NCBI GenBank assembly: GCA_028532915.1
Contig: JAQQAI010000092.1
Location: 1-46,097 of the forward strand
Length of the DNA: 46,097 nucleotides
Reading direction: 5' to 3'
Source: Sphaerochaetaceae bacterium
GTDB lineage: Bacteria; Spirochaetota; Spirochaetia; Sphaerochaetales; Sphaerochaetaceae
Shown here: positions 5,325 to 12,702 of the stretch, piece by piece
How positions within the stretch are numbered: the stretch's first letter is position 1
How the letters are laid out: every line of letters starts with the position of its first letter
Position numbers and translations under genes: made by a program
The notes under the pieces: generated by a model
What the model was told of the DNA's origin: nothing
Seen by the model: the letters and a program-made list of their open reading frames with translations, nothing else
Database searches by the model: none

Positions 5325-5524
5325 GCTCCTTCACGGTAAGCTACCGTGCAGTGTTTGACGTTGTTCCCCATACAAACTCACTCCATTCATTTGGCTCAGG
5401 ATTCTAGCTCTCACTTCCTTCAGATTCCACCTCACGATGGACACCATTGCCTTCAGCTAGCGGTAGGCACTGCAACCCCCACAGAGAACTTTCACCTCCT
5501 AGATAAGCACCATGCTCGGCGCAC
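5325..5524 (-). mobile_element. group II intron remnant, 5' end only
   Basis: Read on the - strand from 5524, the sequence begins GTGCGCC and continues with CTAGGAGGTGAAAG, CTACCGCTAGCTGAAGGC and TCGTGAGGTGGAATCTGAAG, which I recognise as domain I of bacterial group II introns. The match weakens beyond about 5325. No reverse transcriptase ORF and no domain V hairpin can be found, so the element is truncated and cannot splice. Its 5' end lies immediately after the T tract of the 5'-nucleotidase terminator (5528-5553), the kind of site used by class C introns. Class assignment is inferred from that position and not from a full structure. 5204-5324 holds nothing I recognise. Confidence 0.75.
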
Positions 5525-5527
5525 TTT

Positions 5528-5553
5528 AAAAAAGGACCACCCGAAGGTGGCCC
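5528..5553 (-). terminator. terminator of the 5'-nucleotidase gene
   Basis: On the - strand GGGCCACC, loop TTCG and GGTGGTCC are followed by six T. It lies about 20 bases after the stop codon at 5573, and the group II intron 5' end begins three bases beyond the T tract. Confidence 0.92.
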
Positions 5554-5572
5554 TTTACATCATATATGACGA

Positions 5573-8359
5573 TTATTTCATGTTGTGTTCTACAAGGTAA
5601 TCTGTCAGGACTTCGTCCAGGCCTTTACCGTACATGACAACTGGTTTATCAAGCATTGTGTATCCGTCACCACCGGCAGCTAAGAAATCGTTAGTTGCCA
5701 ATGTGTAGGTAGCATCCTTGTCGATGGACTTACCGTTCACGAGTACTCTCTTGATTCTGTTACCAGGATCACTGTAGCGGCTGTAGATGATTCTCATGTT
5801 TGCAGTCTGCGGGAAGCCTCCGTTTGTTTCAGGAAGTCTTGAGTATCCCCATTCGAGTGCATCGTAGATATCCTGTCCAGTAACCTCAACAACGATTACG
5901 ACGTTGTTGAAGGGCAGTACAGTGATGATATCTCCGCGAGTCACATCGCCGGCTTCAATCGATGCTCTGATTCCACCGCCGTTTGTCAGTGCAACATCTG
6001 CACCGGTGGCTTCAATCATAGCCTCTGCAATCATATTACCAAGGTTGGTAGGTTTAGTTCTGACGTTTGCTCTTTCGCCGTCGAGTTTCACAGGAGTATA
6101 AGCGACAACTTCCTGAGTGATCTCAGCGAGTTTTGCTTTCTGCGATTCGATGTATGCGAGAACTTCAGGATCTTCTTTTACTTCCTTGATTCCCAGCATC
6201 TGGGCGAATTCACTTGTTGAAGGATCAGAGACCTGTTCAGCTGAAATCAGGTAGGCATTCTCATCAACAGCCTTTCCGTTTCTCACCTGGATCTCTACGA
6301 TACCGACATAATTCATATATTCGCCGGCAGAAGCGATCAGAGTGTCTTCGACTCTCATTCCGTTCTCAAGAACATCATGGCTGTGTCCATCGATGAACAA
6401 GTCGATTCCATCGATATTCTCAGCGATCATTTTGCTTGTGACTCCATATGAACCGTCTTCATCAAGACCGACATGACCGAGTACGATCACATAATCTGCT
6501 CTTCTGTTCACTTCATCGACAAGAGCCTGAGCGTTGTTCACGACCTCATCGCTCATGAAGGAGAGTCCCTTAACATTCTTCGGATGAGTCTTAGTCTCTG
6601 TGTCAGGAGTTGTAAGTCCGATCACACCGACTGTGAATCCGTCGAAGTAGTACAGCTGGTATGGCTGGAAGACCATATTACCGTCTTCGTCAAGGATGTT
6701 TGCAGAAAGAACTTTGATATCGGTCGCTGCTTCAGCAATCTTAGCAGCTTCAATAAGTCGTTCTTTACCATAGTTGAATTCATGGTTTCCTGGAGCAACG
6801 GCATCATAACCGAGCATATCCAGCAGAACTCCGGCTGTTTCGCCTTCGAACATATTTGTAAGAAGTGTACCATGAGTGACATCACCTGCATCAAGCACTA
6901 ATGCTTTATCGGTGACCGAACGGCCCATTTTAAGAAGAGTGGCAAGTCTTGCGTATCCGACAACATCGTCACTTGCTTCGATTCGGCCGTGAACATCGTT
7001 TGTATGAACAACATACAGGTTGAAGTTCTTCTCACCGTCGTAAGATTTGACGATTACATCATCATCCACATCAGGCATAGCCTTCTCTACTTTCGCAGGA
7101 GCCATCGGAGCTTTTGCCTCTTCCTTGGCAGGAGCTTCGGCTTTGGCCGGTTTCTCTGCTTTGGCAGGAGCTTCTTTCATCATTGTCTTAGCATATGCTT
7201 TCTTCACATAGTCCACATACGCCATCGTCTCAGGATCTGCAGGTACGTTTGTGATTCCAACTGCTTTCGCCAATGGTGAAGCTTTTGGATTCTGTACATC
7301 TTTCGCTGTGATTCTGATAGGAGTTACAGCAGTCGCCATGTCGTCTTTCACATGAATCTCGACAAGACCTACGCTGCTCATATTCTCTCCGGCATTCACG
7401 ATCGTGGTCATACCGACTTTCTTTCCGCCGGCAGGTGCCATTGCACCTTTTCCATCGACAATCAGATCAATACCATCAATATTCTCTGCGATAACTTCGC
7501 TTGTAATACCGTTGACGTTCCCGATGTTTCCGAGCAGTACTACAAAGTCTGCTACTTTTCGAATCTCATCAACTGCATATTGAGCGTTCTCAACGACTGC
7601 AGGATCAATGAATGAGAGCCCTTCCGTATCTGCTGGGGGGGCAGTTACACCGGCTACCGCTACAACAAAATCGTTGAAGTAGTACAACTGGTATGGCTGG
7701 AAGACCCATTCGCCATCCGCATTCAGCACATTTGCAGACAACACGCGAAGATCACTGTTCTCCTGTGCAAATCGTGCCGCACTCTTGAGATATTCTGCAC
7801 CATATGCGAAATCTTCAGGACCCGGGGCTACTGCGTCATAACCGAGCATGTCAAGTAATGCTCCGGCGGGTTCGCCGTAGAATTTCTCAACCATAGGACT
7901 GCCGCTCGCCACGTTACCTGCATCAAGAAGTAAGGTTTTGTCTGTTAAAGAACGACCATACTTGATCCCGGTTGCAAGCTTTGCATATCCGATCCCTTCA
8001 CCTTCTTCAATCGCTCCGTTGACATCGTTTGTATGTGCAATGTAAAGATCGAATTCAGTGAAGCGGTCATTGCTCTTCACTACCATATCTTCGGTAGGAG
8101 CTTTACGCATCATTTTCGGAGCTTCAGCAACTTCTGGCTCGGCCTCTTCTACTTCAACAGGAGCTTCTACCTCGGCAGGGGCGGGAGCTTCCGGTTCAGC
8201 GACTTCTGCAATCTCTGCTTCTTCTGGACCTACCGGTGCTTCAACAGCAGCCATAGGTGGAATGTCTTCCACCTTTTCTGTTGTCCCACAACCAATAAAC
8301 GCGAAGGCAAGCAAAGTAACTAGCAGTGCCGTGATTAGACTTTTTGAAAGACGTTTCAC
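5573..8359 (-). CDS. lipoprotein 5'-nucleotidase with a dead duplicate phosphatase domain
   Basis: A 928-residue UshA-like protein. The start is GTG 8359, with GAGGAGG six bases upstream. A signal segment ends at a lipobox-like FIGC (Cys24), so it is probably a membrane-anchored lipoprotein acting outside the cytoplasm. After an acidic Pro/Ala/Glu linker comes a first metallophosphatase domain (about 103-385), a Lys/Ala/Pro linker (395-428), a second phosphatase domain (about 446-690) and the C-terminal nucleotide-binding domain (about 720-928). The second copy has all the metal motifs: HTNDVHG 452, LDAGDV 489, GNHE 524, GHVG 628, DGHSH 657. The first has HTNDVNG, DAGNV, GPED, GNIG and DGKGA at those places, so it should be inactive. 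Family members have one phosphatase domain. Nucleotide hydrolysis for purine or pyrimidine salvage is inferred. Confidence 0.95.
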   Translation of the reverse strand: MKRLSKSLITALLVTLLAFAFIGCGTTEKVEDIPPMAAVEAPVGPEEAEIAEVAEPEAPAPAEVEAPVEVEEAEPEVAEAPKMMRKAPTEDMVVKSNDRFTEFDLYIAHTNDVNGAIEEGEGIGYAKLATGIKYGRSLTDKTLLLDAGNVASGSPMVEKFYGEPAGALLDMLGYDAVAPGPEDFAYGAEYLKSAARFAQENSDLRVLSANVLNADGEWVFQPYQLYYFNDFVVAVAGVTAPPADTEGLSFIDPAVVENAQYAVDEIRKVADFVVLLGNIGNVNGITSEVIAENIDGIDLIVDGKGAMAPAGGKKVGMTTIVNAGENMSSVGLVEIHVKDDMATAVTPIRITAKDVQNPKASPLAKAVGITNVPADPETMAYVDYVKKAYAKTMMKEAPAKAEKPAKAEAPAKEEAKAPMAPAKVEKAMPDVDDDVIVKSYDGEKNFNLYVVHTNDVHGRIEASDDVVGYARLATLLKMGRSVTDKALVLDAGDVTHGTLLTNMFEGETAGVLLDMLGYDAVAPGNHEFNYGKERLIEAAKIAEAATDIKVLSANILDEDGNMVFQPYQLYYFDGFTVGVIGLTTPDTETKTHPKNVKGLSFMSDEVVNNAQALVDEVNRRADYVIVLGHVGLDEDGSYGVTSKMIAENIDGIDLFIDGHSHDVLENGMRVEDTLIASAGEYMNYVGIVEIQVRNGKAVDENAYLISAEQVSDPSTSEFAQMLGIKEVKEDPEVLAYIESQKAKLAEITQEVVAYTPVKLDGERANVRTKPTNLGNMIAEAMIEATGADVALTNGGGIRASIEAGDVTRGDIITVLPFNNVVIVVEVTGQDIYDALEWGYSRLPETNGGFPQTANMRIIYSRYSDPGNRIKRVLVNGKSIDKDATYTLATNDFLAAGGDGYTMLDKPVVMYGKGLDEVLTDYLVEHNMK

Positions 8360-8391
8360 GTGTTTCCTCCTCATGGACATTCTTTTGAGTC

Positions 8392-10431: not shown

Positions 10432-11040
10432 CTAGACAGTAATATCTTTTATAAACGTGATCAGAACATTGAGTGCATTTTCGTTATGCCCTCCTTCAGG
10501 GATGATGATATCTGCAAACTCCTTAGTCGGTTCAATAAAACTGAAATGACCGGGACGAACGACCTCCAGATACTGGGTGATTACCGAGTCCACAGTTCTG
10601 CCTCTTTCACTCATATCACGTTTCAGCCGTCTGATGAACCGGATATCATCCGGTGTGTCCACATATAGTTTTAGATCGAGCAGGTCCCTGATCGCTTTGT
10701 CATGCAGAACCATCAGCCCTTCGATTATCACTAGCGGTTTTGCCGGGACCTGTATTGTTTCCTCCATCCTCATATGATGAACGAAATCGTACTGAGGCAT
10801 TTCGATCGGGCTGCCCTCTTTGAGCAGCCGCAGGTGTTCATACAGCAGCCCGGTGTCAAACGCATCAGGATGGTCGAAATTATAGGCAGTAATATTTTCG
10901 TTGCTGATGAAGGAAGCTGAATGATAGTAATTATCCTGAGGGATGAATACGAACTCGCTGACAACTTCGCTGATCTTCCTCACTATAGTAGACTTTCCTG
11001 AACCGGAACCGCCGGTTATACCGATTAATTTGACATCCAT
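10432..11040 (-). CDS. udk: uridine kinase
   Basis: A 202-residue P-loop kinase of the uridine/cytidine kinase family, transferring phosphate from ATP or GTP to uridine and cytidine in pyrimidine salvage. Walker A is GGSGSGKST (10-18). PQDNYYH (residues 34-40) carries the substrate-binding aspartate and tyrosines, and YNFDHPDAFD is the usual nucleoside-binding segment. RRLKRDMSERGRT matches the lid region. Length is typical. It ends four bases from yidD in convergent orientation. Confidence 0.93.
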   Translation of the reverse strand: MDVKLIGITGGSGSGKSTIVRKISEVVSEFVFIPQDNYYHSASFISNENITAYNFDHPDAFDTGLLYEHLRLLKEGSPIEMPQYDFVHHMRMEETIQVPAKPLVIIEGLMVLHDKAIRDLLDLKLYVDTPDDIRFIRRLKRDMSERGRTVDSVITQYLEVVRPGHFSFIEPTKEFADIIIPEGGHNENALNVLITFIKDITV

Positions 11041-11838: not shown

Positions 11839-12702
11839 TCAGACCAGATTCTCTCTGACGAAGGCTGCCGACTTTCGCGCCAGCTCGTCCAGGTCCGGAT
11901 TTTTCACTATCTCTCTCCAGATTCCGATATCTCTTCCCACCGTTCCCCCTTTCATCAGAAAGGGTTCCATCACCAGCGGACCATCGAATGAGACATCATC
12001 AAGAGCCTCTTTTATCTCGGCCCATGGTATCCGTCCGGTACCGGGCATCTTTCTATTCGTCTCTCCGAGATGGAAGGCTCCAAGGAAAGATCCGACCCTT
12101 CTGATTGCTTCAGCGAAAGAATCTTCTTCGATGTTCATGTGAAATGTATCGAGAAGAATTCTGCATCCGGGATGGTCCACCTCGGAGACATATTCGACGG
12201 CTTCACTGCTGTCATTGATGAGAAACTGTTCGAACCGGTTAAGCACTTCTACATTGAGCTGGACATTGCGATCATATGCATAGGGTGCAAGAATTCTCAT
12301 ACTTTCAATGCTCTTTTCCCAGATGGGCTGTTTTGATTCGAGGGAGGCTGGCATCTGGGCAGGCCAGTAGCTGTGGACGGTCCCTCCGATCATTCCGCCT
12401 CCCATCTCGGCTACGGCATCGATCATCCGTTTCATGAAATCCAGCCCTTTTTCTCGCACCCGGGTCTCGAGCGAAGATACATCATACTGTTTTTGCAATC
12501 CTATCCCGTATGACAATATCAGATTCTCATCTTCTGCGGCCTTTTTAAGATCCCTCCGTTCAGCCGGAGAGAGACCGACCACGGTTCCCCCGTTGAGTTC
12601 AAGCTGATCGAATCCCAGCGAAGGAACTTTTGAAATGAACGGGAGAAAATCAACATCCCACTCATGAGTCCAGAAAGCATAATAGATCCCTACCTTTCTC
12701 AT
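11839..12702 (-). CDS. ketose 3-epimerase-like TIM-barrel protein
   Basis: A 287-residue protein of the sugar phosphate isomerase/epimerase superfamily, closest in motif to D-tagatose/D-psicose 3-epimerases. The metal ligands fall at exactly the positions known for the Agrobacterium enzyme: Glu152, Asp185, His211 and Glu246, with Glu158 also present. They sit in EVLNRFE, LLDTFHMNIEE, FHLGETNR and MEPF. It should interconvert C3 epimers of a free ketose using Mn or Co. The start overlaps the kinase stop by ATGA (12699-12702), so the two are translationally coupled; the epimerase probably supplies the sugar for that kinase. The substrate is not determined by sequence. Confidence 0.88.
   Translation of the reverse strand: MRKVGIYYAFWTHEWDVDFLPFISKVPSLGFDQLELNGGTVVGLSPAERRDLKKAAEDENLILSYGIGLQKQYDVSSLETRVREKGLDFMKRMIDAVAEMGGGMIGGTVHSYWPAQMPASLESKQPIWEKSIESMRILAPYAYDRNVQLNVEVLNRFEQFLINDSSEAVEYVSEVDHPGCRILLDTFHMNIEEDSFAEAIRRVGSFLGAFHLGETNRKMPGTGRIPWAEIKEALDDVSFDGPLVMEPFLMKGGTVGRDIGIWREIVKNPDLDELARKSAAFVRENLV

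Follow-up and report, generated by a model that had tools for sequence, protein, structure and literature searches.

A metal-site-dead phosphatase module, possibly a spacer, precedes the catalytic head of a lipoprotein 5'-nucleotidase in Sphaerochaetaceae

Here we describe a 5'-nucleotidase gene that encodes, ahead of its catalytic domains, an additional metallophosphoesterase module with a lost metal site and a predicted intact fold. The gene lies in the window, that is, the whole 46,097-nucleotide stretch analysed, which belongs to a draft Sphaerochaetaceae genome (G000) of 2.64 Mb in 96 contigs. We suggest, with a probability of about one half, that such dead domains are structural modules: placed between the lipid anchor and the nucleotidase head, they would serve as a spacer or stalk and possibly for docking.

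The gene occupies positions 5573..8380 of the minus strand, on which all its parts lie, as one uninterrupted open reading frame of 935 codons. An earlier note on this DNA placed it at 5573-8359; the frame stands, and its start moves by 21 bases to 8380. Judging from the relatives, the true start may be Met3 (8374). The protein begins with a signal peptide and lipobox (8288..8380; FIG/C, Cys31), whose leader, starting MRRKHVKRLS, is kept across the family, with K9, R10, L11, S12, G30 and C31 invariant in the family alignment. An Ala/Pro/Glu-rich linker, predicted to be disordered, follows (8087..8287; pLDDT <50 for residues 1-91). Then come the first metallophosphoesterase module, D1 (7175..8086, residues ~99-402), an Ala/Lys/Pro/Glu-rich inter-module linker (7061..7174; pLDDT <50 for residues 403-434), the second metallophosphoesterase domain, D2 (6110..7060, residues 441-757; PF00149, E=3.9e-12), with 8 of 8 metal ligands, and the 5_nucleotid_C substrate-binding domain (5576..6109, residues 758-935; PF02872, E=3.8e-47). 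The motifs GERxxVR, NGGGIRAS, LPFNN and TNDFxAAGGDGY of the latter align with UshA (1ush). Full-length relatives share 75-77% identity with the protein. Hence, the product is probably an exported, lipid-anchored 5'-nucleotidase of the UshA type, its localisation and the activity of its head being predicted from these features.

A hairpin with a T run at 5528..5553 is the likely terminator of the gene. Just past it lies a group II intron remnant (5351-5441, minus strand, upstream edge perhaps near 5524; Rfam RF02001, 34.3 bits), with no reverse-transcriptase frame seen nearby and no second copy in the same genome. Group IIC introns typically insert after terminators.

D1 and D2 are 50.3% identical over 302 residues, at an offset of 343 residues (D119 against D462). 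Their alignment score of 727 lies ~100 SD above that of shuffled sequences (mean 40, SD 6.6, maximum 65, n=200), which excludes a chance likeness and bears out the spacing and lengthwise similarity first noticed in the sequence. The motifs of D2 (NDVHG, DAGDV, GNHEF, GHVG, DGHSH) are intact, and those of D1 (NDVNG, DAGNV, GPEDF, GNIG, DGKGA) are changed. The two ligand sets read DHDNHHHH and DNNPENKA, respectively, so that the earlier claim of a loss of all ligands in D1 is corrected to seven of eight, the Asp of the ND pair being kept. Among the positions invariant in the live relatives (n=77), D1 keeps 1 of the 8 ligands and 61 of the 69 others (Fisher p=1.9e-5); the loss of the ligands is thus selective. 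AlphaFold, with an input alignment made of the window and locus proteins only, predicts an intact fold for D1, with pLDDT mostly 65-92 in ten-residue blocks, its strands and helices following one another as they do in D2; the leader and the inter-module linker are predicted to be disordered.

The C-terminal half of the predicted model resembles UshA and CD73; in a search with the whole model, dominated by D2, UshA 1ho5 gives Z 35.1 with 468 residues aligned at 31% identity. D2 and the C domain match UshA-type enzymes (E. coli UshA, human CD73; type I, Metallophos plus 5_nucleotid_C) over the full length, in sequence as well as in predicted fold, and with all ligands. Unlike these enzymes, the window protein has a lipoprotein leader and, ahead of D2, one more metal lobe that is inactivated. 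In a sequence search D1 alone still matches the structures of UshA and CD73 (E ~5e-8 to 1e-7). Pfam detects only D2 and one 5_nucleotid_C domain, with zero matches when residues 1-409 are searched alone, and neither the Pfam search nor the predicted structure places a 5_nucleotid_C domain after D1. By itself D1 therefore falls outside the UshA type, both the dimetal ligands and a C domain of its own being missing. In UshA-type enzymes both lobes position the substrate (PMC8475336). Since D1 has no second lobe, it was presumably never a complete nucleotidase and would do no nucleotidase work by itself.

Bacillus YfkN, a trifunctional natural fusion of two enzymes (PMC8475336), CpdB-like and UshA-like, is likewise an exported protein with a pair of metallophosphoesterase domains. 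However, the first unit of the window protein is without the C domain and the metal site. We rejected a YfkN-like complete double enzyme on these grounds, and the NCBIfam PRK09419 (YfkN-type) models score far below cut-off. A retained or newly gained other activity or metal site of D1, in which Asn or Asp in place of His or Asp binds another ion or a nucleoside, is very improbable. The replacements are often polar and conserved inside each dead clade, as such a site would have it; however, they differ between clades (NSG/QAVQL against DAGN/GPADF), and the substrate site of the second lobe is absent.

The dead modules fall into two clades. Clade A comprises genera g3 and g5 (support 100/100), with the conserved replacements NSG, SDLG and DGNG; clade B comprises the window's lineage, G046 and large paralogues (96/71), with DAGN and GN.G. 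The two are joined with support of only 64/91, and the tree leaves single and double origin undecided. The dead copy is ancient and common to several genera. The earlier question whether the first copy is always dead has a mixed answer: it is dead in many relatives, and in G022 it keeps seven of eight ligands (DHDEHHHH), at dS 0.365 from its own live partner. This ligand-bearing first copy, of the kind that was expected to point to recent decay, groups as sister with the live domain of its own genome (100/100), and thus represents an independent, younger duplication and not the ancestor of the window's D1. A third line is formed by the stand-alone lipoproteins of G016 and G088, with 5 and 1 ligands left, respectively.

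Because dS from the window's D1 to other genera is saturated, dN/dS was taken from copies within one gene and from close species pairs. In most genes with several dead copies (G046, G058, G002, G131, G132, G133) these differ by a dS of 0-0.005, against ~0.11 between orthologues, which resembles the pattern of homogenised tandem repeats. Copies diverge more in G001, G054 and a paralogue of G046 (dS 0.03-0.22, dN/dS 0.07-0.38); the two of G001 have dS 0.224 and dN 0.015, that is, dN/dS ~0.07. Pooled pN/pS of the dead modules is 0.17. The dead domain is under purifying selection, in some pairs somewhat laxer than the live domain.

That the first copy has been decaying as a relic since the duplication is extremely improbable. 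Its ligands are gone, and in other lineages G022, G016 and G088 give stages that range from a single changed ligand to the change of nearly all. However, dN/dS is low, frame breaks are absent, the 61 of 69 invariants are kept, the dead clades span several genera, and amplification came after ligand loss. Recent decay is rejected by the selection and by the spread of the clades over genera. It is strongly supported that D1 is a pseudoenzyme domain, with a homologous fold, no catalytic residues and maintenance by selection. The kept pseudo-enzyme proposed from the sequence has thus held up in many relatives, on its selection as well as on its predicted fold.

Named relatives belong to Sphaerochaeta, Bullifex, Pleomorphochaeta and uncultured Sphaerochaetaceae or Spirochaetales. 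A dead domain followed by a live one was found in 23 genomes of the family, mostly as a single dead copy (for example in the window, G017, G023 and G048). Two dead copies are present in G001, where an assembly gap separates them, and in G002, G046, G054, G058, G131 and G133, and three in G132, at a spacing of exactly 996 bp; the number thus varies from one to three between species. In the nucleotidase architectures examined, the module sits between the lipobox and linker and the catalytic head. The two-domain form was not found outside Sphaerochaetaceae among 393 genomes of the phylum, a search in which the order is represented by this one family; the matches outside the family are frames of ordinary UshA size (~510-700 aa), almost all with one match per gene. 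A different arrangement is encoded in G118 (L109:4917-11408), where a single dead domain precedes two live ones in a 1,508-aa protein (dead-live-live) and a third live nucleotidase gene follows.

The window's true number may exceed its single copy, which may represent a collapsed array, since near-identical repeats break short-read assembly. Dead modules are present in nine near-closed genomes, in seven of them as at least two copies. A contig ends immediately upstream of the live domain in at least nine draft genomes, the N-terminal flank is found at another contig end in G036, G045 and G005, and in G114 an assembly gap falls within D1. Tandem Repeats Finder, with its period limit of 500, is silent on the module array.

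Other genera have an unrelated module of ~93 aa (YGY), in 1-10 copies, ahead of the live domain in the place of D1, and YGY also makes up small lipoproteins encoded just upstream. No examined protein combines it with the dead phosphatase module. We rejected the possibility that YGY is a degenerate piece of phosphatase, as the profiles are not homologous (hhalign probability 2.8%). It is predicted to form a compact beta-beta-beta-alpha-beta-beta-alpha fold (pLDDT 87.7), for which Foldseek returns no known fold with E <0.001 and VIA gives a best Z of 7.4, a value that common arrangements also reach. A partial profile match to the adhesin 6vs7 (summed E=7.8e-7, best single stretch just 19 bits) is not relied upon. 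G079 (L118:4362-9647) encodes a 1,762-aa nucleotidase with ten YGY copies before its live domain. G009 (L145:3367-4518) encodes a small lipoprotein in which one ~93-aa module is joined directly to a degenerate 5_nucleotid_C domain, with no phosphatase lobe.

Dead modules occur also in other proteins. The genome of the window encodes P0002 (contig C51, L006:5552-10237), a 1,562-aa exported protein. It carries a signal sequence, VEPEPVKA repeats, a dead module of clade B and a FecR-like region, the last at a Pfam E of 0.068 that does not reach the cut-off; its C-terminal ~900 residues are beta-rich and end, as outer-membrane barrels do, on an aromatic residue. P0002 has relatives in several genera and is putatively an outer-membrane beta-barrel protein. 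Two further nucleotidases of this genome are a dead one of 578 aa that has a C domain (C52) and a live one of 600 aa (C54). In G046 (L056:6286-10446) a 1,387-aa protein lacks a nucleotidase domain and carries the dead phosphatase module in three near-identical copies.

The recurrence of the dead module in P0002 makes docking the main rival explanation, although an unlikely one in our judgement. Here the module would bind an envelope partner, such as the dead module of P0002, or a soluble ligand, and so hold the nucleotidase beside a porin or its substrate. The P0002 module is of the same clade B as D1, D1 retains most of the invariant non-ligand positions, and the retromer subunit VPS29 sets a precedent as an inactive metallophosphatase fold that serves as a rigid protein-binding scaffold (PMC3101248). 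VPS29 differs from D1 in being eukaryotic, intracellular, of a single domain and unfused to a live homologue. Against docking, an unrelated module takes the place of D1 in other genera; the barrel of P0002 is itself putative, its C-terminal part matching no Pfam family, and so, purely, is the binding of a partner.

Regulation of the active domain by the dead one, through dimerisation, allostery or a chaperone role in folding, is improbable. It would agree with the fusion directly ahead of the live domain and with the constraint on D1. However, the inter-module linkers are long and predicted to be disordered, the modules number from one to three, in other genera the module is absent or of another kind, and P0002, the 1,387-aa protein of G046 and the G088 lipoprotein carry dead modules with no nucleotidase attached.

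We therefore return to the structural reading. As the module is multiplied in some relatives and replaced by an unrelated one in others, its job is most likely structural, a role that accounts for most of the observations. The module is a duplicate, made in frame, of the metal-binding lobe of the enzyme itself, with the substrate-binding lobe left out. It then lost its metal ligands, while selection preserved its predicted fold. In relatives it has been multiplied in frame and kept near-identical, or the unrelated ~93-aa module takes its place. In the proposed mechanism the working head, made of D2 and the C-terminal substrate-binding domain, would be held off the membrane anchor by the N-terminal module region, which would space and present it and possibly dock envelope partners. 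Of the roles suggested in the earlier note, spacing or surface display fits the evidence best.

Three points stand against a stalk. The window has one dead copy, and variation is known from relatives, between species. A single folded module adds little to the reach of a disordered linker of ~70 residues. The dead domain is conserved more widely than a pure spacer needs and recurs in P0002, which suggests binding.

The nearest described class is that of the Periscope Proteins (SasG, Rib, Sgo_0707; PMC8201768, PMC9704523). Shared features are near-identical tandem folded domains (here in relatives, the window's own protein showing a single dead copy), proline-rich linkers, a position between anchor and head, copy number that differs among close relatives, and the failure of short-read assemblies at the repeats. 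Unlike in the Periscope Proteins, the head here is a lipid-anchored enzyme and not an adhesin, the repeat is ~330 aa long against ~50-165 aa, it derives from the catalytic domain of the same enzyme by duplication and inactivation, and the variation is known between species. We tentatively propose a variable-length surface stalk, a 'Periscope' nucleotidase, in which duplication gave the spacer, ligand loss its inertness and recombination its number; the pseudo-domain may have been reused in the large, putatively outer-membrane protein, perhaps docking the two. No published report of this arrangement was found in the literature searched, which covered few subscription papers.

Upstream of the nucleotidase lies a uridine-kinase-like gene (10432..11040, minus strand; PF00485, E=2.5e-45), and a uridine kinase gene is close upstream in most relatives examined. 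This synteny suggests that the head feeds nucleoside salvage. Further along, at 11839-12702, a D-psicose 3-epimerase (NCBIfam NF051856, above cut-off) belongs to a sugar-utilisation cluster with kinase and ABC transporter genes.

Last, short-read genomes may conceal the copy number of such modules. Pseudoenzymes are usually accounted for singly; here, possible steps are visible in one bacterial family, from a single changed ligand (G022) through a partly dead copy (G016) and single dead copies to near-identical arrays, with an unrelated module in sister genera. The family thus shows a possible stepwise route from a catalytic domain to a building block and offers a testable case. Variable-length arrays perhaps reach beyond adhesins to lipid-anchored enzymes that scavenge nutrients.
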